32,308 nucleotides of DNA, taken from contig CAISKQ010000045.1 in assembly GCA_903885965.1 (NCBI GenBank), forward strand, positions 1 through 32,308, read 5' to 3'. The notes below the pieces were generated by a model that did no database searches, had not been told where the DNA came from, and worked only from the letters and a program-made list of their open reading frames with translations. Made by a program: the position numbers and the translations under genes. Positions 6,258 to 25,863 of the stretch are shown here, in pieces; within the stretch, counting starts at the first letter, position 1; the number at the start of each line of letters is the position of its first letter. The stretch is from an uncultured bacterium (GTDB taxonomy: Bacteria; Patescibacteriota; Minisyncoccia; Moranbacterales; GWC2-37-73).

Positions 6258-7169
6258 ATGTTTTTCGACACCCACGCCCACGTTAATTTCAATGCTTTTA
6301 AAGACGACGGAGAAGAAGTTCTGCGTCGCTCGCTTGAAAATGGAATGAATGTGGTTAATGTCGGTTCGCAGTATTCCACTAGCAAAAGGGCAGTGGAATA
6401 TGCGCACAAATTTGAAAACTTGGGGACTAAGTCCCCACTTGGGGACTTAGTCCCCAAGTTTTCAGCCGGAGGAGTCTACGCAGCTATCGGAATTCATCCT
6501 GTGCACTTGAAAAAAGGCAGTTTCACTCACCAAGACCCATGGGAAATTGATGAAGAAGATGAGTCCGCCTCTTCGGCGGGCAGGGAAATTCCAACGGTTG
6601 GAGAAACTTTTGACTATGCAAAATATCTTGATTTGGCGCGCGATGAAAAAACGATAGCAATTGGCGAGGTCGGTTTGGATTATCATCATTTTGAAGAAGG
6701 GGACGATATTGATTTTTTGAAAAATTTGCAGAAAGAAACTTTACTAAAATTTATTCAGCTTGCAAATGAGGTGCAAAAGCCGATGATGTTTCACTGCTGG
6801 GACGCATATGCGGATTTGTTAGAAATACTAACTAATTTTCCAGTTACCAAGAAAGGAATTGTGCATAGCTTTATTGGTTCTTATAAAACCGCTAACAAAT
6901 TTATTGCGCTTGGTTACAATCTTGGACTCAATGGGATTATTACCTATGGCGATGGCTATGATCGCTTGATTAAGGAAGTTGATTTGAAAAACATCGTGCT
7001 GGAAACTGATTGCCCCTATCTGACTCCGCGTCCTCTTGAAAAAGGAACTCGCAATGAGCCGCTTTTTGTCAATCACGTTGCGCAAAAAATCGCCGACGTC
7101 AAAGGCATTTCAATTGAAGAAGTTGCAAAAATAACTTCGCAAAATGCCAAAGAAATTCTTGGTTTGTAA
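6258..7169 (+). CDS. tatD: TatD family hydrolase
   Basis: FFDTHAHVNF, YAAIGIHPVH, AIGEVGLDYHH, FHCWDA, ETDCPYLTPRP motifs. Confidence 0.92.
   Translation: MFFDTHAHVNFNAFKDDGEEVLRRSLENGMNVVNVGSQYSTSKRAVEYAHKFENLGTKSPLGDLVPKFSAGGVYAAIGIHPVHLKKGSFTHQDPWEIDEEDESASSAGREIPTVGETFDYAKYLDLARDEKTIAIGEVGLDYHHFEEGDDIDFLKNLQKETLLKFIQLANEVQKPMMFHCWDAYADLLEILTNFPVTKKGIVHSFIGSYKTANKFIALGYNLGLNGIITYGDGYDRLIKEVDLKNIVLETDCPYLTPRPLEKGTRNEPLFVNHVAQKIADVKGISIEEVAKITSQNAKEILGL
6413..6464. repeat. ~50-bp near-perfect palindromic element inserted in frame in tatD
   Basis: tGAAAACTTGGGGACTAAGTCCCCACTTGGGGACTTAGTCCCCAAGTTTTCa; homologous to 14337-14386 in atpG; encodes NLGTKSPLGDLVPK. Confidence 0.93.
6565..6579. repeat. 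Small GC-rich palindrome within tatD
   Basis: CCGCC-tcttc-GGCGG; similar to TCTGCC-tcatc-GGCAGA in atpD (15678-15694); both encode SASSA. Confidence 0.6.
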
Positions 7170-10831: not shown

Positions 10832-10918
10832 TGTCATCCTGAACTTGTTTCAGGATCTCGCACGCAGCAAATTAACTGAAATAAAGAAAGCAGATTCTGA
10901 AACAAGTTCAGAATGACA
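10832..10918. repeat. 87-bp CTGAACTTGTTTCAG inverted repeat, copy A
   Basis: TGTCATCCTGAACTTGTTTCAGGATCT ... AGATTCTGAAACAAGTTCAGAATGACA. Confidence 0.93.
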
Positions 10919-10924
10919 GAACTT

Positions 10925-11392: not shown

Positions 11393-11479
11393 TGTCATGC
11401 TGAACTTGTTTCAGCATCTCTATTGCAGGCAGTATTATGAGACAAAGAAAGTAGATTCTGAAACAAGTTCAGAATGACA
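11393..11479. repeat. 87-bp CTGAACTTGTTTCAG inverted repeat, copy B
   Basis: TGTCATGCTGAACTTGTTTCAGCATCT ... AGATTCTGAAACAAGTTCAGAATGACA. Confidence 0.93.
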
Positions 11480-11561
11480 CAAGAGAGAAATTCAAATACG
11501 CAATTCAGCTTTCAATTTGAAAAAATTAAATGCTGATAGCAGATTTGAAAAAATGGGTGGA

Positions 11562-12077: not shown

Positions 12078-12164
12078 TTTCATGCTGAACTTGTTTCAGC
12101 ATCTCGGTTACGAGCAGTGTTGTGAGACAAAGAAAGTAGATTCTGAAATAAATTCAGAATGACA
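12078..12164. repeat. CTGAACTTGTTTCAG inverted repeat, copy C
   Basis: TTCATGCTGAACTTGTTTCAGCATCTCGG...AGATTCTGAAATAAATTCAGAATGACA. Confidence 0.9.
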
Positions 12165-12256
12165 AGCTCCCATTTATAGATTTGTAGCAGATTTGTATAT
12201 TTGTGGGGATAATTAGTATATTTGTAAAGGATTAGTAATTTAGTGGGGAATAAAAG
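12165..12256. repeat. Leader segment duplicated upstream of atpA (matches 15473-15557)
   Basis: agctcccattta/gtagatttgtagcagatttgtatatttgtgggg.taattagtatat.. shared almost verbatim. Confidence 0.92.
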
Positions 12257-13976: not shown

Positions 13977-14969
13977 ATGGCCTCCTCTCTAGACATCAAA
14001 CGTAGAATCAGATCGATAAATTCCACCAAAAAAATCACCAAAGCAATGGAGATGGTTTCGGCTGCCAAAATGCGCCGAGCTGTTTCGAGTGTGCTAGCAA
14101 TCAGGCCCTATGCTCATGCAGCGTGGAGCGTGCTGACAAATTTGTCCAAAGCCTTCGAAGAATTTTCAGGGCATGGTTTTTTGGAAATTCGGCCCGTGAA
14201 AAACGTGTTGATGATTGTGGTGACTTCAAACCGCGGACTTTGCGGATCATTTAACACTCAAATTGCCAAAAAAATCAGAGAAGAAATTGCTAACCCGGAA
14301 AAATTAACAATTAATAGGATCGGTGTAAGGAAAATCGAATCCTTGGGGACTAAATCCCCAATTGGGGACTTAGTCCCCAAGGATTCTCGCGACCTAAAAA
14401 TCGATTTTATTACGATTGGGAAAAAAGGTGAGGCGATGGTGAGAAAATTAAACAAAGAAATTATTGCTACCTTTCCGGACGGGGCTGATTTTTCAGTTGC
14501 CAATGACATCAAGCCTCTTTCAAAAATTGTGATGGATGCGTATTTGGCCAAAAAATATGACAAAGTTGTGGTGATTTATACTGACTATGTCAGCGCCGTG
14601 ACGCAGCAAACTCGGATTCGTCAAATTTTGCCGATTTCGAAAATCGACATTGAAAAACAAATTGCCGAAATGGATGTGGTGGCCAAAGAATATGGACTCG
14701 TCGAACCAAAAGTGGAATATAAGATTGAGCCAAGTCCGCAGGAAGTTTTGGAATTCATTTTTCCGCGTCTGATTGAGATGCAACTTTTCCATGGCGTGTT
14801 GGAATCAGCTGCTTCTGAACACAGCGCTCGCATGGTGGCCATGAAAAGCGCCACTGATGCTGCCGGCGAAATGTCCGAAGATTTGACGTTGGCATACAAT
14901 CAAATCAGACAAGGAAAGATCACACAAGAAATTGCTGAGATTAGTGCGGGACGGGCAGCGTTGGAATAA
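13977..14969 (+). CDS. atpG: F0F1 ATP synthase subunit gamma
   Basis: DIKRRIRSINSTKKITKAMEMVSAAKMRRA; C-terminal AYNQIRQGKITQEIAEISAGRAAL. Confidence 0.97.
   Translation: MASSLDIKRRIRSINSTKKITKAMEMVSAAKMRRAVSSVLAIRPYAHAAWSVLTNLSKAFEEFSGHGFLEIRPVKNVLMIVVTSNRGLCGSFNTQIAKKIREEIANPEKLTINRIGVRKIESLGTKSPIGDLVPKDSRDLKIDFITIGKKGEAMVRKLNKEIIATFPDGADFSVANDIKPLSKIVMDAYLAKKYDKVVVIYTDYVSAVTQQTRIRQILPISKIDIEKQIAEMDVVAKEYGLVEPKVEYKIEPSPQEVLEFIFPRLIEMQLFHGVLESAASEHSARMVAMKSATDAAGEMSEDLTLAYNQIRQGKITQEIAEISAGRAALE
14337..14386. repeat. 50-bp near-perfect palindromic element inserted in frame in atpG
   Basis: GAATCCTTGGGGACTAAATCCCCAATTGGGGACTTAGTCCCCAAGGATTC; encodes SLGTKSPIGDLVPKDS. Confidence 0.94.
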
Positions 14970-15385: not shown

Positions 15386-15472
15386 TGTCATCCTGAACTT
15401 GTTTCAGGATCTCGGTTACGGGCAGCATTGTTAACCAAAGAAAGTAGATTCTGAAACAAGTTCAGAATGACA
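15386..15472. repeat. 87-bp CTGAACTTGTTTCAG inverted repeat, copy E
   Basis: TGTCATCCTGAACTTGTTTCAGGATCTCGG...AGATTCTGAAACAAGTTCAGAATGACA. Confidence 0.93.
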
Positions 15473-17107
<1,635 letters not shown>

Positions 17108-18358: not shown

Positions 18359-18901
18359 ATGAAATCTCTTCAATTGCTAAAAATCTTGTTTTTTGGACCT
18401 AGGGTTACAGAGGATGCTAAAAAAATGAGAGAATTTGCCGAGGATGCTACTTTTGAAGAGGTTGGCAAGGAAGTTGCAGCTATCGTGAAGAAGCTGTACG
18501 GTGGCAAATCACTGCGTATTCGAGCGGTTGATGGTGGCTCGAGTAATGCTGAGGAAATTGAATTGACAGCCCTAAATAATGCTTATTATGATATTGACCG
18601 TTTTGGTCTTTCTTTTGTGGCATCTCCACGACATGCGGATATGCTTTTTGTGACTGGACCGATTACGCGAAACTTGGAAACTGCTGTGCGCACAACTTAT
18701 GAAGCTGCTCCACGACCTTGCATTGTTGTGGCAGTTGGGGATGGTGCTTGTGACGGCGGAATCTGGAAAGATTCATATGCGATTGTTGGCGGTGTTGAGA
18801 AGGTGATTCCGGTTGATATAAAAATCCCAGGAGATCCTCCGACGCCTACGGAAATTTTACGTGGTATTTTGCACGCCCTTAAACAGCAAGAAATTAAATA
18901 A
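18359..18901 (+). CDS. NuoB/group-4 [NiFe] hydrogenase small-subunit-like protein lacking [4Fe-4S] ligand cysteines
   Basis: GLSFVASPRHADMLFVTGPITRNLETAVRTTYEAAP...DSYAIVGGVEKVIPVDIKIPGDPPTPTEIL is diagnostic; ligand positions substituted. Confidence 0.9.
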   Translation: MKSLQLLKILFFGPRVTEDAKKMREFAEDATFEEVGKEVAAIVKKLYGGKSLRIRAVDGGSSNAEEIELTALNNAYYDIDRFGLSFVASPRHADMLFVTGPITRNLETAVRTTYEAAPRPCIVVAVGDGACDGGIWKDSYAIVGGVEKVIPVDIKIPGDPPTPTEILRGILHALKQQEIK

Positions 18902-18906
18902 ATCTT

Positions 18907-20910
18907 ATGACAATAAATTTTATAGCTTACGGAGTTTTTGCTTATTTTTTGGGACTAGTTTTTTCAGGTTGTTTTGCGTTAATAGGAGGTCAATGGAAAA
19001 AATCAGTGCAACTTTTTGTGCTTTCAAATGTGATTGGTTTTGCTACTGGTGTCTTTTTCTTGTCTGGCTTTGCATCAAAACAGCTGGTGTTGGCAAATGT
19101 AGATTGGTTCTTTCAATTTTCGCCAACTCTTAATTTGCTTTCGGCAATCTTCTTTACGTTTATTAGTCTTGTTTCTGCTTTGGTTGGCGTGTATAGTTTG
19201 AGGTACCTGGAATTATATAAAGAAACTTATAGTCCTGCGGTGACGCAATTTTTGATAACAGTATTTGTTTTCGGAATGCAGGGCGTCCTTTTTGCGAATA
19301 ATACTTTTTCGTTTTTATTTTTGTGGGAAATAATGTCTATCTCATCATTTTTCTTGGTTTTTGCTGATAGAAAAGAGGAATCTCTGAAGGCGGCTTTCTT
19401 TTATTTTGTAATGACTCACCTTGGCGCGTCGGCAATCTTGGGCGGCTTTTTGATTTTAGGCAATGGGTCGCTGCTATTTAATTTTTCAAATATCGCAACA
19501 GCTTCGCAAAATCTTTCGCCAACTTTGGAGGCGACAGCTTTTCTTTTATTTTTGTTTGGTTTTGGCAGCAAGGCGGGACTGGTTCCATTTCATGTTTGGC
19601 TTCCAGAAGCTCATCCTGAAGCGCCAAGCAATGTTTCCGCTTTGATGTCTGGATTGATGCTTAAGGTCGCCGTGTATGGTTTTATTAAAATAGTATTTGC
19701 TTTTGCTGGACTTCCGAGTTGGGCAGGACTAACTGTCATTGTGCTTGGTTTGTTGTCTGGAGTTGTGGGAGCTTTGCATGCTGTGATTGAGCGAGATATT
19801 AAGCGCGCTTTTGCTTTCAGTAGTATTGAGAATATTGGAATTATTTTCACAATGTTGGGAACATCGCTTTATCTTTTTGAGCAAAGCAATGCTGCAGGCT
19901 CTTTGGCAATTGCCAATATAATCTTGGTCTTTGCAATTTTTCATGCTGGCAGTCACGCGTTTTTCAAAACGGCACTTTTCTTGAGCAGTGGCGTCGTGAT
20001 TAATCGTTTTCATAGTCGAAGTCTTGAGACCATGGGAGGTCTTGCGAAAATTATGCCTGTTTTTTCATTCGCATTTTTGCTAGCCATTATTGGTTCGTTG
20101 CCGCTTCCGCCCTTTGGAACTTTCTATGGGGAATGGGGATTTATTCAGAATGTTGTTACAATTTTGCATAATTCAAATCTAGGAACCAACGTGGCAATTG
20201 TGATGGTGGTAACTCTTTCATTTGCGGGACTCATTAGCGGTTTGGCGATTTTTGCGATGGTGAAGGTTTTTGGGATTTCAATGTTGGGGCTTGCTCGCAA
20301 TAAACACGTTGACAATAGTGGTGAGAAAAAAGATTTCTTGCTTAGCTTGCCGATAATGACGCTTGCCTTGGGAACCTTGCTTTTGGGAGTTTTTGCAAGA
20401 AATATTATTAGTTTCTTAAATTCAAATGCAAGTCTTCTGACGGGTAATTTTACTGATGGCAATTATTTTGCAGGGAGTCGACTTTCTTCGGTGGCAGTGT
20501 TTGTTTTCCCAATAGTTGTTCTTGCTGGTCTGTATTTGCTGTATAGTTATTTTAAAAAGGATGTTTCAGAAAGAGTATATCGAACGTGGGATTGCGGACA
20601 GCCTATTGATGAAACAATGGAATATAGCGCCACGGCTTTTTCGGCGCCGATTCGTTTTTTCTTTTTGCAATTAATCAAGCGCAATAAAAAGTTACAATCT
20701 GCACCAGTTGTCGAAACTAATCCTTGGATTCGCAAGTATGCCTTTTCTTTGTCTTTTGATTCGATTTGGAAGGAGAAATTGTATCAGCCAATTATTTTTA
20801 TTTTGGAATTTATTGCTGAGAGAGTGAAGGTGATTCAGGGTGGTCGCATTCAATATTATTTGCTTTTCGTGCTTGGCACTTTAATTGTTACATTAATCAT
20901 ATTTTTATAA
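18907..20910 (+). CDS. hyfB: HyfB/NuoL-like antiporter-type membrane subunit
   Basis: FLWEIMSISSFFLVF, GFGSKAGLVPFHVWLPEAHPEAPSNVSALMSGLMLKVAVYG, HAGSHAFFKTALFLSSG, C-terminal YRTWDCGQ. Confidence 0.88.
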   Translation: MTINFIAYGVFAYFLGLVFSGCFALIGGQWKKSVQLFVLSNVIGFATGVFFLSGFASKQLVLANVDWFFQFSPTLNLLSAIFFTFISLVSALVGVYSLRYLELYKETYSPAVTQFLITVFVFGMQGVLFANNTFSFLFLWEIMSISSFFLVFADRKEESLKAAFFYFVMTHLGASAILGGFLILGNGSLLFNFSNIATASQNLSPTLEATAFLLFLFGFGSKAGLVPFHVWLPEAHPEAPSNVSALMSGLMLKVAVYGFIKIVFAFAGLPSWAGLTVIVLGLLSGVVGALHAVIERDIKRAFAFSSIENIGIIFTMLGTSLYLFEQSNAAGSLAIANIILVFAIFHAGSHAFFKTALFLSSGVVINRFHSRSLETMGGLAKIMPVFSFAFLLAIIGSLPLPPFGTFYGEWGFIQNVVTILHNSNLGTNVAIVMVVTLSFAGLISGLAIFAMVKVFGISMLGLARNKHVDNSGEKKDFLLSLPIMTLALGTLLLGVFARNIISFLNSNASLLTGNFTDGNYFAGSRLSSVAVFVFPIVVLAGLYLLYSYFKKDVSERVYRTWDCGQPIDETMEYSATAFSAPIRFFFLQLIKRNKKLQSAPVVETNPWIRKYAFSLSFDSIWKEKLYQPIIFILEFIAERVKVIQGGRIQYYLLFVLGTLIVTLIIFL

Positions 20911-20959
20911 TTTGCGCATTTCACGTTTTCTTGAGTTAAATGCGTAACTCCTGATTTTT

Positions 20960-22555
20960 ATGAGTCCAATATTAGCAACATTATTACAAGCTATCTTTAT
21001 TCTTGCTATTGCGCCATTAGCAACCGGCATAGTTAAGTTTTGCAAAGCTCGTCTTCAGGGTCGCCACGGAGCTTCACCTTTTTTACCTTATTACACTTTT
21101 GCAACTTTACTAAAAAAGGAGATGGTGATTTCGGATGTTACTTCTTGGGTTTTCCGAGTGGTTCCATTTGTTGTGCTTGCAAGTTCTGTAATTTTAGCGT
21201 TTGTGTTGCCACTTCTTTTTGTGGGAGGAAAACTTGCAAGTCTTAGTGATTTTCTTTTCGTAGCTGGGATTTTAACAATTGGTTCAATTTTTCTTGTTTT
21301 GGGTGGACTTGATACGGGCAGCGCTTTCGGTGGTATGGGTTCTAGTCGGGAAATGACTATTGCTGCTCTTATTGAGCCGACTATTATTATGGTTTTTGCT
21401 GCAATAAGTTTTGTGAGTGGCACATTTGCAATTGATGGAATGGTTAGCCAGTCACTGATCTTTGCTCATCCATATTTGGTTCTTTCAATTTTTGCTTTTT
21501 TCTTGGTTACCTTAGCTGAGAATGCGCGCTATCCAGTTGATAACCCAGCAACACATCTTGAATTAACCATGGTTCATGAAGCGATGATTTTAGAATACTC
21601 TGGTCCATATTTGGCGATGCTTGAATACGCCAGCGCGATTAAACTGACAGTTTTTGCAATCTTGCTGGTAAATCTTATTTTTCCCACGACTATTTTGACG
21701 GTTGTTGGTTTTGGTTTTTTTGCTGCGGTAGTTTCAATTATCTTTGGGGGCCTGAAGGTTGTCGTCATGATGGGACTGCTAGCTCTTTTAGAGTCAACTG
21801 TCGTTAAGATGCGATTTTATCGTATGCAGGAATATATGTCGATTGCTTTTTTCACTGCTCTGGCTGGAATGCTGATTGCGCTTTTTTCTTCTTTTCTTAA
21901 AGTTAATATTGAATACCATACGATTTTTGGAGCACTTGCGGTTTTCTTCGTAGTGCTGCTCTTTGGTCGTGCTCGAAGTTATGCGATGGTGCGGTATTAC
22001 GCCCTTTCCTCGCTTTCAATTGCTGGCATTGCTCTTGGCCTATCTTTTCTACCTGGGGCAGAAAAAGAGCACTTGTGGATTTTTGCAGCAGTAATGGTTT
22101 TAATTAAAGTGATAATGGTTCCATCGGTAATCAGGTATGCACAAAAAAAACATAAGGATTTGATTAGTGCTCCGTCATTTTTGAAACCAGCCTCGAGTTA
22201 TTTTGTGATCGTAGCTATTCTTGGCGTGACATTCTTCATTATGCAGCACACTCCGATTGTGGGTATTGTTGAGTTTGACACCTTACTGTACGTTTCAATT
22301 GCGCTTATTGGAATTGGACTGGCTACGATGATTGTGCATCGAAATATTTTGTCGCAAATCCTGGGATTGTTGACCATGGAAAATGGGGTTACGGTGTTTA
22401 CCTTAGTCACCGTTAAATCATTGCCGCTCGTGATTGAGCTTGGCGTGTTTGTTATTATCATTGTAAGCTCGTTTATTTTGTCGATTTTAGGGGCAAGAAT
22501 TCGAGAATTTTATGGTTCGTCTGATACGGAAGAACTTCGCAGTTTAACTGAATAG
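20960..22555 (+). CDS. HyfC(NuoH-like)-HyfE(NuoK-like) fusion membrane subunit
   Basis: N-terminal ENARYPVDNPATHLELTMVHEAMILEYSG (HyfC/NuoH); C-terminal SQILGLLTMENGVTVFTLVTVKSLPLVIELGVFV (HyfE). Confidence 0.85.
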   Translation: MSPILATLLQAIFILAIAPLATGIVKFCKARLQGRHGASPFLPYYTFATLLKKEMVISDVTSWVFRVVPFVVLASSVILAFVLPLLFVGGKLASLSDFLFVAGILTIGSIFLVLGGLDTGSAFGGMGSSREMTIAALIEPTIIMVFAAISFVSGTFAIDGMVSQSLIFAHPYLVLSIFAFFLVTLAENARYPVDNPATHLELTMVHEAMILEYSGPYLAMLEYASAIKLTVFAILLVNLIFPTTILTVVGFGFFAAVVSIIFGGLKVVVMMGLLALLESTVVKMRFYRMQEYMSIAFFTALAGMLIALFSSFLKVNIEYHTIFGALAVFFVVLLFGRARSYAMVRYYALSSLSIAGIALGLSFLPGAEKEHLWIFAAVMVLIKVIMVPSVIRYAQKKHKDLISAPSFLKPASSYFVIVAILGVTFFIMQHTPIVGIVEFDTLLYVSIALIGIGLATMIVHRNILSQILGLLTMENGVTVFTLVTVKSLPLVIELGVFVIIIVSSFILSILGARIREFYGSSDTEELRSLTE

Positions 22556-22609
22556 GGTGTTCAGAACTTTTTACTTCGCTCGTCTTCTTTTAATTTTAGA
22601 AAAAAATTT

Positions 22610-24085
22610 ATGACTCCAATTATTACAATTATCTTTACTCTTGCAGGTTCAGCTGGCGCAATTTTTTTGAAAAAAGAAAAACATATTTTGCTTAGCACGT
22701 GGATATTTGCGCTGCTGGGCAGTCTTTCGGTTTTTGCAATTTCATTTCCGGTTTTACTTAACGTTGCGGGGAGTTGGCATGATTCAATTTGGCTTCTGGA
22801 TGGCTTTTCAGCCTTGATGGCAACATTAGTGGCCTTTGTGTATTTGATGGCGACACTTGTTAGTGTGCGTTACATCGGGCATGAATATAAGGAAAAAATC
22901 ATTACATTGGCTGATTTAAAATTGTATTTTTCACTACTGCATCTTTTTGCACTTTGCATGGTTATTACTGTCTTGGCTAATAATTCATTGCTTTTATGGA
23001 TGGCTTTTGAGGGCACAACTCTTTCTTCAACATTTTTGGTCGGACTTTATCGCAAGAAAACTTCGGTTGAAGCAGCTTGGAAATATATCATTATTTGTTC
23101 AACAGGAATAAGCTTGGGGCTCTTGGGAATTTTGCTTTTTAGTTATGGAACATCTATTGGCGGACTCAAGGGGGAAGGCATCTTTACTTTGACCTCACTT
23201 TTTCAAAACGCGCATCTGATTTCGCCTGAAATCGTGAAATGGGCTTTTGTATTCTTGTTTATTGGTTTTGGCGCAAAGCTTGGCTTGGTGCCAATGCATA
23301 TTTGGTTGCCAGATGCACACAGTAATGCGCCTTCACCGATTTCCGGTTTGTTTTCTGGAATCCTGCTAAACATTGCGCTTTATGGTATTATTCGTTTTCG
23401 TTTTATCACTGACCTGGCACTTGGCAGCAGCACTTGGACTGGGCGGCTTTTTCTATTTTTTGGTTTCGTTTCAATTTTAGTGCCAGCACTAATGATGCTT
23501 GTGCAGACAAATTATAAGCGCATGTTGGCATATTCAAGTGTTGAACACATGGGTTTGATAAATTTTGCATTGGCACTTTCACCTTTTGGAATTTTAGCTG
23601 CAGTTATTCATATGATTGGGCACACACTAACCAAGTCGATGTTATTTTTTGGCGCAGGAGAAATTTTGATTAACTATAAAACCACGCAAACGCAGCAAGT
23701 GAAAGGATTACTCAAAAAAGCCCCTTACACGGCAGTCCTTTTTATGCTTGGCATTCTGGCAATCGTTGCGCTGCCGCCTTCAATTTTGTTTGTGAGTGAG
23801 TATACGATCTTTACGGCGGCTTTTGTGCTTCATCCGGTTTTGGCTCTTTGTGTTTTTCTGGCTTTGAGTGTCATTGCTTATGCAATGCTTCGCTCAACTG
23901 TTGATATGTTTTTTGCTCCAGCTGAAAATGAATCAGAGCTTAAAAAAGAAAAATGGAACGTCACGCACTGGGTGATGACTTTGCAGTTGGTTTTGATTGT
24001 GGGTCTGACTTTCTTTTTTTCTTCGAGCAACGGCTTTGCTTTTATTGATTCAATTGCTAAAAATACGATTTATATAAGTAGGTAA
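22610..24085 (+). CDS. hyfF: HyfF/NuoN-like antiporter-type membrane subunit
   Basis: LLLWMAFEGTTLSSTFLVGLYRKKTSVEAAWKYIIICSTGISLGLLGILLF; GFGAKLGLVPMHIWLPDAHSNAPSPISGLFSG. Confidence 0.88.
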   Translation: MTPIITIIFTLAGSAGAIFLKKEKHILLSTWIFALLGSLSVFAISFPVLLNVAGSWHDSIWLLDGFSALMATLVAFVYLMATLVSVRYIGHEYKEKIITLADLKLYFSLLHLFALCMVITVLANNSLLLWMAFEGTTLSSTFLVGLYRKKTSVEAAWKYIIICSTGISLGLLGILLFSYGTSIGGLKGEGIFTLTSLFQNAHLISPEIVKWAFVFLFIGFGAKLGLVPMHIWLPDAHSNAPSPISGLFSGILLNIALYGIIRFRFITDLALGSSTWTGRLFLFFGFVSILVPALMMLVQTNYKRMLAYSSVEHMGLINFALALSPFGILAAVIHMIGHTLTKSMLFFGAGEILINYKTTQTQQVKGLLKKAPYTAVLFMLGILAIVALPPSILFVSEYTIFTAAFVLHPVLALCVFLALSVIAYAMLRSTVDMFFAPAENESELKKEKWNVTHWVMTLQLVLIVGLTFFFSSSNGFAFIDSIAKNTIYISR

Positions 24086-24108
24086 ATATTGGTCATATAT
24101 AAATTAGG

Positions 24109-24273
24109 GTTTTCAGAAACTAAGTCAGCAATTTTTACTTCGCTTGTTTACTTTTTAGGACACACTCTTGGTTAGGAACTATAACCAATCGCTCAGAATT
24201 CGCTGTCGCTCATAATGGTCTAAAAAGCAAACAAGCTCGTAAAAATTTAGAAGTAGTCTTTAGTTGAAACCAT
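24109..24273. repeat. Large imperfect inverted repeat between hyfF and the large-subunit gene
   Basis: TTTTTACttcGCTTGTTTacTTTTTAG ... TCTAAAAAgcAAACAAGCtcGTAAAAATTTAG. Confidence 0.7.
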
Positions 24274-24282
24274 AAATTACAT

Positions 24283-25863
24283 ATGAACTATAAAAATATA
24301 ATTATGAACATTATTGATATTCTCAAAAATTTTTCGCAGATTCAAGTGATTGATCAAAAAGGTGACACTGTTTTCGCTTCGGTCCAGCGGGAAAACTTGG
24401 CCTATGTGACAACGATTTTAGTCAGTGAATATGGGCTTAGTCTGTCATCGCTTTTTGGCAGTGACAATCGAAAGGAAAATCAAACTTTCGGTGTACATGT
24501 GATTTTTGGCAATGACTCAGCGCAGCAATGGCTCAAACTTTCAACCTCAGTTCCCGCTAGTGATCCGCAATATCCCTCAATCACTAAAACCGTCATGGCC
24601 GCTCATTGGTATGAACGCTATTTGCAAGACATGTTTGGCGTGGTTGCCAAAGGGCATCCAGATCCAAGACGCTTAGTCAATCATGAAAACATTCCAGTGG
24701 GAACTTTTCCTTTGCGGAAAGATTTTGCACTGAACGCAAAACTTGAAAAAGCCAGTGTTCCTTATCCAATGCATCATGTGGCAGGAGAAGGAATTTTTGA
24801 AATTCCGGTTGGGCCGATTCATGCTGGCATCATTGAGCCGGGACATTTTCGTTTCAATGTGGCTGGCGAAAGAATTTTGACTTTGGAGGGGAAACTTTTT
24901 TTCACCCACAAGGGAGTGGAAAAATTGCTGGAAGGAAAAACGGTTGAGCAAGCGTTGCCATTTATTGAGCGACTTTCAGGCGATATGGCTGCAGCGCACG
25001 GCCTGGCTTTTGCGCAAGCGGCTGAAAAAATTGCGGCTTGCCAAGTTTCATCGCGCGCCGAGCATTTGCGAACCTTGGTTTGCGAACTGGAAAGAATCAC
25101 TATGCATATTCATGACCTGGCTAATATTGGCGGGATGGGAACTGGGTATTCTTTCATTGCAGCTAATGGTTTTCGCATCAAAGAGCGAATGATGCGACTT
25201 TCCGGTATCATTTTTGGTAATCGTTTTTGGCGAGGTTTTGTTATTCCTGGCGGGGTTTCATTTGATATTGATAATCATAAGTTGGAAAAAATTCTTTTGA
25301 TTTCCAAAGATGCTTGCGATGAGATGCAAAAAATTGTCGCTCAAGCCTTGGCTTCGGATGGATTTTTGGATCGCTTGCAAACCACGGGAGTGCTGCCCTT
25401 GGAAGCAGCTAAGGCTTTTGGCGCCCTTGGCATCGCAGCGCGCGGTTCCGGACTTGATCGCGACATTCGCCGAGATCATCCGCACGGCGCTTACAAGGAA
25501 TATCCAATCGAAGTTGCCAGCGAGAGCAAGGGCGACGTCCACTCAAGATATTTAGTGAGAATTCAAGAGCTGAAAACTTCCCTGGCCTTGATTGAAAAAA
25601 TTGTCAAAAATATTCCCGCGGGAGAAATCAAAACTGCTTTTGAAATTAAGGATGGTTTTGCTTTGGGTGCGGTTGAATCTTGGCGCGGAGAAATTTTGTG
25701 CGCGCTGGAAATCAAAAACGGAGTGATTGAGAGATGTTTTCCTCGCGATCCGTCTTTTTGCAATTGGGCACTTTTTGGAATCATGGGACCGGGTAACATT
25801 GTGCCGGATTTCCCCCTTATTAATAAATCTTTGAATCTAAGTTACTCGGGAACAGATCTTTAA
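24283..25863 (+). CDS. NuoCD/group-4 hydrogenase large-subunit-like protein lacking [NiFe] ligand cysteines
   Basis: N-terminal 30-kDa-like domain (AAHWYERYLQDMFGVVAKGHPDPRRLV); PVGPIHAGIIEPGHFRF; RLSGDMAAAHGLAFAQAAE; C-terminal NLSYSGTDL. Start may be 24304. Confidence 0.88.
   Translation: MNYKNIIMNIIDILKNFSQIQVIDQKGDTVFASVQRENLAYVTTILVSEYGLSLSSLFGSDNRKENQTFGVHVIFGNDSAQQWLKLSTSVPASDPQYPSITKTVMAAHWYERYLQDMFGVVAKGHPDPRRLVNHENIPVGTFPLRKDFALNAKLEKASVPYPMHHVAGEGIFEIPVGPIHAGIIEPGHFRFNVAGERILTLEGKLFFTHKGVEKLLEGKTVEQALPFIERLSGDMAAAHGLAFAQAAEKIAACQVSSRAEHLRTLVCELERITMHIHDLANIGGMGTGYSFIAANGFRIKERMMRLSGIIFGNRFWRGFVIPGGVSFDIDNHKLEKILLISKDACDEMQKIVAQALASDGFLDRLQTTGVLPLEAAKAFGALGIAARGSGLDRDIRRDHPHGAYKEYPIEVASESKGDVHSRYLVRIQELKTSLALIEKIVKNIPAGEIKTAFEIKDGFALGAVESWRGEILCALEIKNGVIERCFPRDPSFCNWALFGIMGPGNIVPDFPLINKSLNLSYSGTDL

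Follow-up and report, generated by a model that had tools for sequence, protein, structure and literature searches.

How does a near-perfect palindrome come to lie in frame inside a conserved nuclease gene? The question is raised by tatD on a 32,308-nucleotide contig (CAISKQ010000045.1 of assembly GCA_903885965.1; "the window" below) from an uncultured bacterium of the Candidatus Moranbacteria lineage, genome G000 in our numbering. A sequence-only reading of this DNA had noticed a palindrome of about 50 bp in tatD that is shared with the ATP synthase gene atpG, and had likened it to the palindromic elements of Rickettsia. Here we argue that the palindrome is probably one copy of a non-autonomous mobile element, named F1, within a system that resembles REPINs, the paired repetitive extragenic palindromic (REP) units, and their RAYT transposases, but lives partly in coding sequence.

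The element in tatD, its copies and its empty sites

The features of the two host genes are as follows.
6258..7169, + strand: tatD, TatD-family nuclease, host gene; the predicted fold puts the insert in a loop of low confidence
6413..6464, unstranded: palindromic element of family F1, in frame in tatD, with 24-bp arms and a 4-nt centre; peptide LGTKSPLGDLVPK
6414..6419, + strand: left outer arm, GAAAAC, the same as in tatD of relatives lacking F1 (KFEN)
6422..6436, + strand: first REP-like unit, GGGGACTAAGTCCCC
6441..6455, + strand: second REP-like unit, inverted, GGGGACTTAGTCCCC, 19 bp from the first unit
6458..6463, + strand: right outer arm, GTTTTC, the left arm inverted; missing at empty sites
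13977..14969, + strand: atpG, ATP synthase gamma, host gene; the insert is missing from 17 of 19 family genomes
14336..14386, unstranded: second F1 copy, in frame in atpG; peptide LGTKSPIGDLVPK

Both host genes were identified by Pfam (TatD_DNase, 213 bits; ATP-synt). The tatD element lies exactly where it had been placed and reads TGAAAACTTGGGGACTAAGTCCCCACTTGGGGACTTAGTCCCCAAGTTTTCA, 52 letters in which perfect 24-bp arms flank a 4-nt centre, and it is translated in frame as NLGTKSPLGDLVPKF. The remaining two forward frames across it carry TAG or TAA, in agreement with the earlier claim that only the used frame is open, and since the element is approximately its own reverse complement, both strands give LGTKSPxGDLVPK in one phase and stops in the others. 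As DNA, the hairpin has a predicted stability of -28.5 kcal/mol (z -8.96), and none of 200 shuffles was as stable. The atpG copy is likewise real, with 86% identity to the tatD copy across 56 nt (14331-14386).

Thirteen paired copies of the pattern GGGACTWAGTCCC-N6-GGGACTWAGTCCC were found in the 1.27-Mb genome, compared with none of the reversed control pattern; this control and the shuffles together rule out a chance origin of the palindrome. Seven of the copies are in frame within six genes, namely tatD, atpG, a Wzy-type O-antigen ligase (two sites), a glycosyltransferase and two Y1 transposases, and the other six lie in no long open reading frame (ORF). Seemingly long ORFs across F1 in L120, L122 and L129 were left out as spurious or 5' of the likely start. 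In a survey of 312 kb of contigs picked regardless of the element, 24 near-perfect palindromes (arms of at least 15 bp) were intergenic, two lay at an ORF edge and no others were inside ORFs, which rules out that coding palindromes are merely abundant in general.

The family has a narrow distribution. All six genomes of the same genus carry 6 to 14 copies each, while only one of the 13 other family genomes has F1, as a single copy; any F1 occurs in 11 of 131 genomes across the order, and in a phylum sample of 380 genomes it was found only in the window's own genome. An exact scan of 85,462 genomes returned the freshwater genus, other Candidatus Moranbacteria, one metagenome-assembled genome (MAG) of Portnoybacteria and one contig filed under Geobacteraceae (L257, CAIMXI010000384.1). 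The last carries F1 within a Moranbacteria-type host repeat and is probably mis-binned. Viral contigs contained no exact F1 pair.

Comparison with relatives revealed the empty sites. In TatD, F1 is present only in G000, and several relatives have KFEN or KFES followed directly by GIYAAVG. In AtpG it is present only in G000 and G003 and absent from the 17 other family genomes, a net gain of about 11 residues, and in AtpD four genus members carry it, with G000 and G004 lacking it. Orthologues without the insert were also found for LigA, MiaB, a YfcE-like phosphoesterase, the glycosyltransferase and the O-antigen ligase, all host genes being confirmed by Pfam. Since orthologues lack the inserted residues, an ancestral protein sequence is ruled out and F1 is an insertion that is mobile in evolutionary terms, having entered coding genes repeatedly among sister species. 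Both tests by which the earlier reading could have been refuted, orthologues sharing the residues and a lack of further genomic copies, thus spoke for it. Hosts of in-frame F1 beyond the genus are RlmN, LigA, MiaB and AtpD, a glycosyltransferase that reads it in another phase, and ThrRS in Portnoybacteria; AtpD and MiaB have it in the loops that are also used within the genus.

The AlphaFold model of TatD (mean predicted local distance difference test score, pLDDT, 81) places the insert mostly outside the confident core, with segments 57-62 and 64-69 below pLDDT 50 between helix 39-51 and strand 73-77. Mapped on the model in this way, as had been proposed, the position fits a tolerated surface loop. 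The TatD loop of G004 and G005 (L066, L073) also contains low-complexity NPLNPLNPL repeats, which in G004 reach about 75 residues.

At the same protein loops, orthologues hold other palindromes of like build. Family F2 (GAGGCTWAGCCTC) occurs in the glycosyltransferase and the O-antigen ligase, with 1 to 8 copies per genome in the genus and five in G018, and family F3 (GAAGGYTNARCCTTC) occurs in TatD, MiaB and YfcE.

Pairing between Y1 transposases and their palindromes

The presence of F1 in Y1 transposase genes points to a candidate mover. The genes in G000 score over the PF01797 cut-off and encode RAYT-like Y1/HUH enzymes. F1 is in frame at transposase residue 61, half an F1 is found at residue 158 and a further F1 lies just downstream; with the HuH motif at 88 and the catalytic Tyr at 149, the inserts bracket the catalytic core. 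The other families behave likewise, F2 being present in both transposase loops and at either flank of the gene in G018, and F3 and a fourth family in and around the transposases of G003 and G011. A search of the Protein Data Bank with the transposase gave only weak, meaningless matches to toxin repeats.

Across the order, such transposases were found in 53 of 124 genomes. At 23 of the 30 loci examined a near-perfect palindrome, mostly with a private stem, is in frame inside the gene, and these palindromes sit at a few shared loops. The locus's own flanks match the in-gene palindrome over at least 12 bp in 17 of the 23 loci, against 2.6% of comparisons with the flanks of other loci, and the median longest match is 20 bp for own flanks and 7 bp for other loci. 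This pattern is the private pairing of REP and transposase that defines REPtrons. Flanking palindromes are present on both sides at L271, L277, L283, L294 and L299, and on one side of the F1 gene.

At L217:4681-6241 (G000:C64) a truncated Y1 transposase has three F2 copies next to it, and a 495-residue ORF runs through two of these in frame; the locus is possibly a decayed source of F2.

Stems, outer arms and other repeats

The stems and the arms outside them carry traces of how the elements have changed. At site 1 of the O-antigen ligase, G001 has F1 and G002 has F2. The two have the rare centre AACT in common, near-identical outer arms and eight stem differences that all keep pairing, which points to a single insertion whose stem was rewritten afterwards. 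Past the core, complementarity extends in most copies either for 0-3 bp or for 6-10 bp, a bimodal distribution. In 22 long-arm copies with seven variable outer pairs, 97.4% of the cells are paired, there are 46 double changes, and the outer-arm covariation is 0.79 compared with 0.23 after shuffling, a value inflated by the set having been picked mostly for complementarity; for the same reason the lack of G-U pairs is weak evidence. Independent support was found in orthologous or paralogous copies: a count by eye that took in C26/C76, the two transposases, the glycosyltransferase and the two O-antigen ligase sites gave six changes that were compensated and three that were single. For tatD and atpG, the left arm matches what the gene read ancestrally and the right arm repeats it in inverted form. 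This suggests that the right arm was copied from a template; the glycosyltransferase site suggests a palindromic target instead.

Other repeats were found in the same genomes. A longer intergenic palindrome of about 130 bp (arms taataccgaattaactaaattagtgctacttcacgc...) has F1 at its centre without the long arms of F1, and a palindrome of about 90 nt (TGTCATCCTGAACTTGTTTCAGGATCT...AGATTCTGAAACAAGTTCAGAATGACA) is present in four copies around the atp genes; the translation of the latter, CHSGLDPESRI...KQVQDD, is also in frame in the L035 glycosyltransferase.
L036:2450-2560, L037:2550-2650, L110, L113, L125, L133, L142: sites of the ~130-bp palindrome
Window 10832-10921, 11393-11482, 12078-12167, 15386-15475: copies of the ~90-nt palindrome
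In L107, L102 and L114 the stretches VISHQSL, LLVTDY, LPTGQAGKP and CHPERN...FARNDN are in frame in LigA, a glycosyltransferase and MiaB; proteins here thus seem open to several kinds of repeat. The window also contains, at 18359-25863 and adjoining the ATP synthase operon, a gene run resembling subunits of a membrane-bound hydrogenase or of complex-I type.

Known systems, rival explanations and a proposed mechanism

REPINs and RAYTs have been described in Pseudomonas, E. coli and Stenotrophomonas (PMC3116915, PMC2817692). F1 shares with them the two inverted REP units folding into one hairpin, the compensating stem changes and the private pairing with a Y1 transposase that has the palindrome at its flanks, and the transposase shares with RAYTs the PF01797 Y1/IS200-like domain with HuH and Tyr. 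In-frame REPs inside tnpA-REP genes are already known from subclass 2.4 (RAYT group 4) of Cyanobacteria and Bacteroidetes, with the insert placed between HuH and Tyr, and the same paper mentions REPs that have entered unrelated genes (PMC6006769); the Moranbacteria system is therefore a variation on a known theme. As in subclass 2.4, the transposase gene has REPs at its flanks and others within it that leave the frame intact, but here the inner ones are found before HuH and after Tyr; the motifs NHFH and FQ are similar to those of subclass 2.1. The text of PMC6006769 does not mention Patescibacteria, and in the open-access literature we found no paper on such elements in this phylum.

Several observations weigh against the assignment. 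Canonical REPINs are largely extragenic and high-copy, whereas seven of the 13 F1 copies are in ORFs and a genome holds 6 to 14, not hundreds. The foot of F1 is CTTA, CCTA, CTTG or CCTG, and the GT[AG]G that defines REPs is absent. The NCBIfam model REP_Tyr_transpos gave 21.6 bits for one transposase copy (cut-off 80) and no match for the other two. The F1 transposase has no F1 on its upstream flank, no F1-type transposase was found in the draft MAGs G002, G004 and G005, which hold 9-14 F1 copies, no transposition event was seen, and the covariation value is, as noted, inflated.

The likeness to Rickettsia palindromic elements (RPE), known from Rickettsia and Wolbachia (PMC2229807), held, in that F1 works in the manner of an RPE, but a closer relative was found. 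Both are palindromic repeats that occur between genes and, in frame, within conserved ones, but RPE measure 105-146 bp and the elements here 46-52 bp with a candidate transposase as partner; REPIN/RAYT is the better frame. That F1 is nevertheless a coding palindrome of the Rickettsia kind, spread by another route and with the transposase gene as just one more host, would agree with its presence in a dozen unrelated proteins and with the three copy-rich genomes lacking a detected F1-type transposase. We regard this as unlikely, given that most transposases across the order have a palindrome of their own that matches their own flanks, a private pairing not expected of a random victim gene. A functional motif, either an mRNA hairpin regulating operons or a binding peptide, would account for the stable hairpin, the strongly covarying arms and the repeated use of the same loops. 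It is made very improbable by the switching of presence between sister species, by the unrelated hosts, and by the TatD insert being a low-confidence model loop at a site that elsewhere holds other palindromes and other peptides.

Palindromes inside protein genes are also known from mitochondria. In Nematomorpha they are perfect inverted repeats with arm identity kept, for which template switching has been proposed, but they are long and gene-specific and form no repeated mobile family (PMC6649704). In Magnusiomyces, ribosome skipping of palindromic elements has been reported (cited in PMC6649704), and hairpin-rich inserts in essential genes would be tolerable that way; for F1 we give this hardly any credence, since all coding copies found are open in frame and skipping needs neither an open phase nor a frame-keeping length. 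A rival for the arm step only dispenses with template switching and has the element favour sites that were palindromes beforehand, a preference reported for IS1272 (PMC5678879). The empty glycosyltransferase allele of G004, already AAC-C-GTT at the site, speaks for it, but relatives without the element show only the left arm in tatD and atpG, and compensating changes after insertion separate orthologous and paralogous copies; we consider it the less probable of the two, though a serious contender.

On the REPIN/RAYT reading, F1 is a double hairpin of REPIN-like build that enters intergenic DNA or, phase permitting, surface loops of essential proteins, where its copies would be translated as LGTKSPxGDLVPK. 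We infer that the candidate transposase binds the single-stranded hairpin and mobilises F1, like the TnpA-REP and IS200/IS605 enzymes. An insertion would survive only if its phase is open and the loop tolerates it, which may be why the same loops recur, and outer arms and stems would be held complementary at the DNA level, probably via template switching in the hairpin. Because the repeat lies inside its own transposase gene, selection would keep one frame readable and might so make it suited to coding sequence. It is a rather speculative extension that protein-coding palindromes in general are RAYT-driven REPINs, readable through living in their own transposase gene, with the four stem arms then rewritten together by hairpin-templated copying.

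Coding palindromes of Rickettsia have been known since 2000, and to our knowledge their mover has yet to be established, and none of the Y1 transposase type has been described. The Moranbacteria lineage gives a candidate mover with many transposase-repeat pairs, as well as essential enzymes that have naturally received insertions again and again and whose matched empty alleles allow comparison. If the proposal is true, REP-type elements lengthen proteins in frame in a bacterium with a reduced genome, and do so repeatedly at the same loops.
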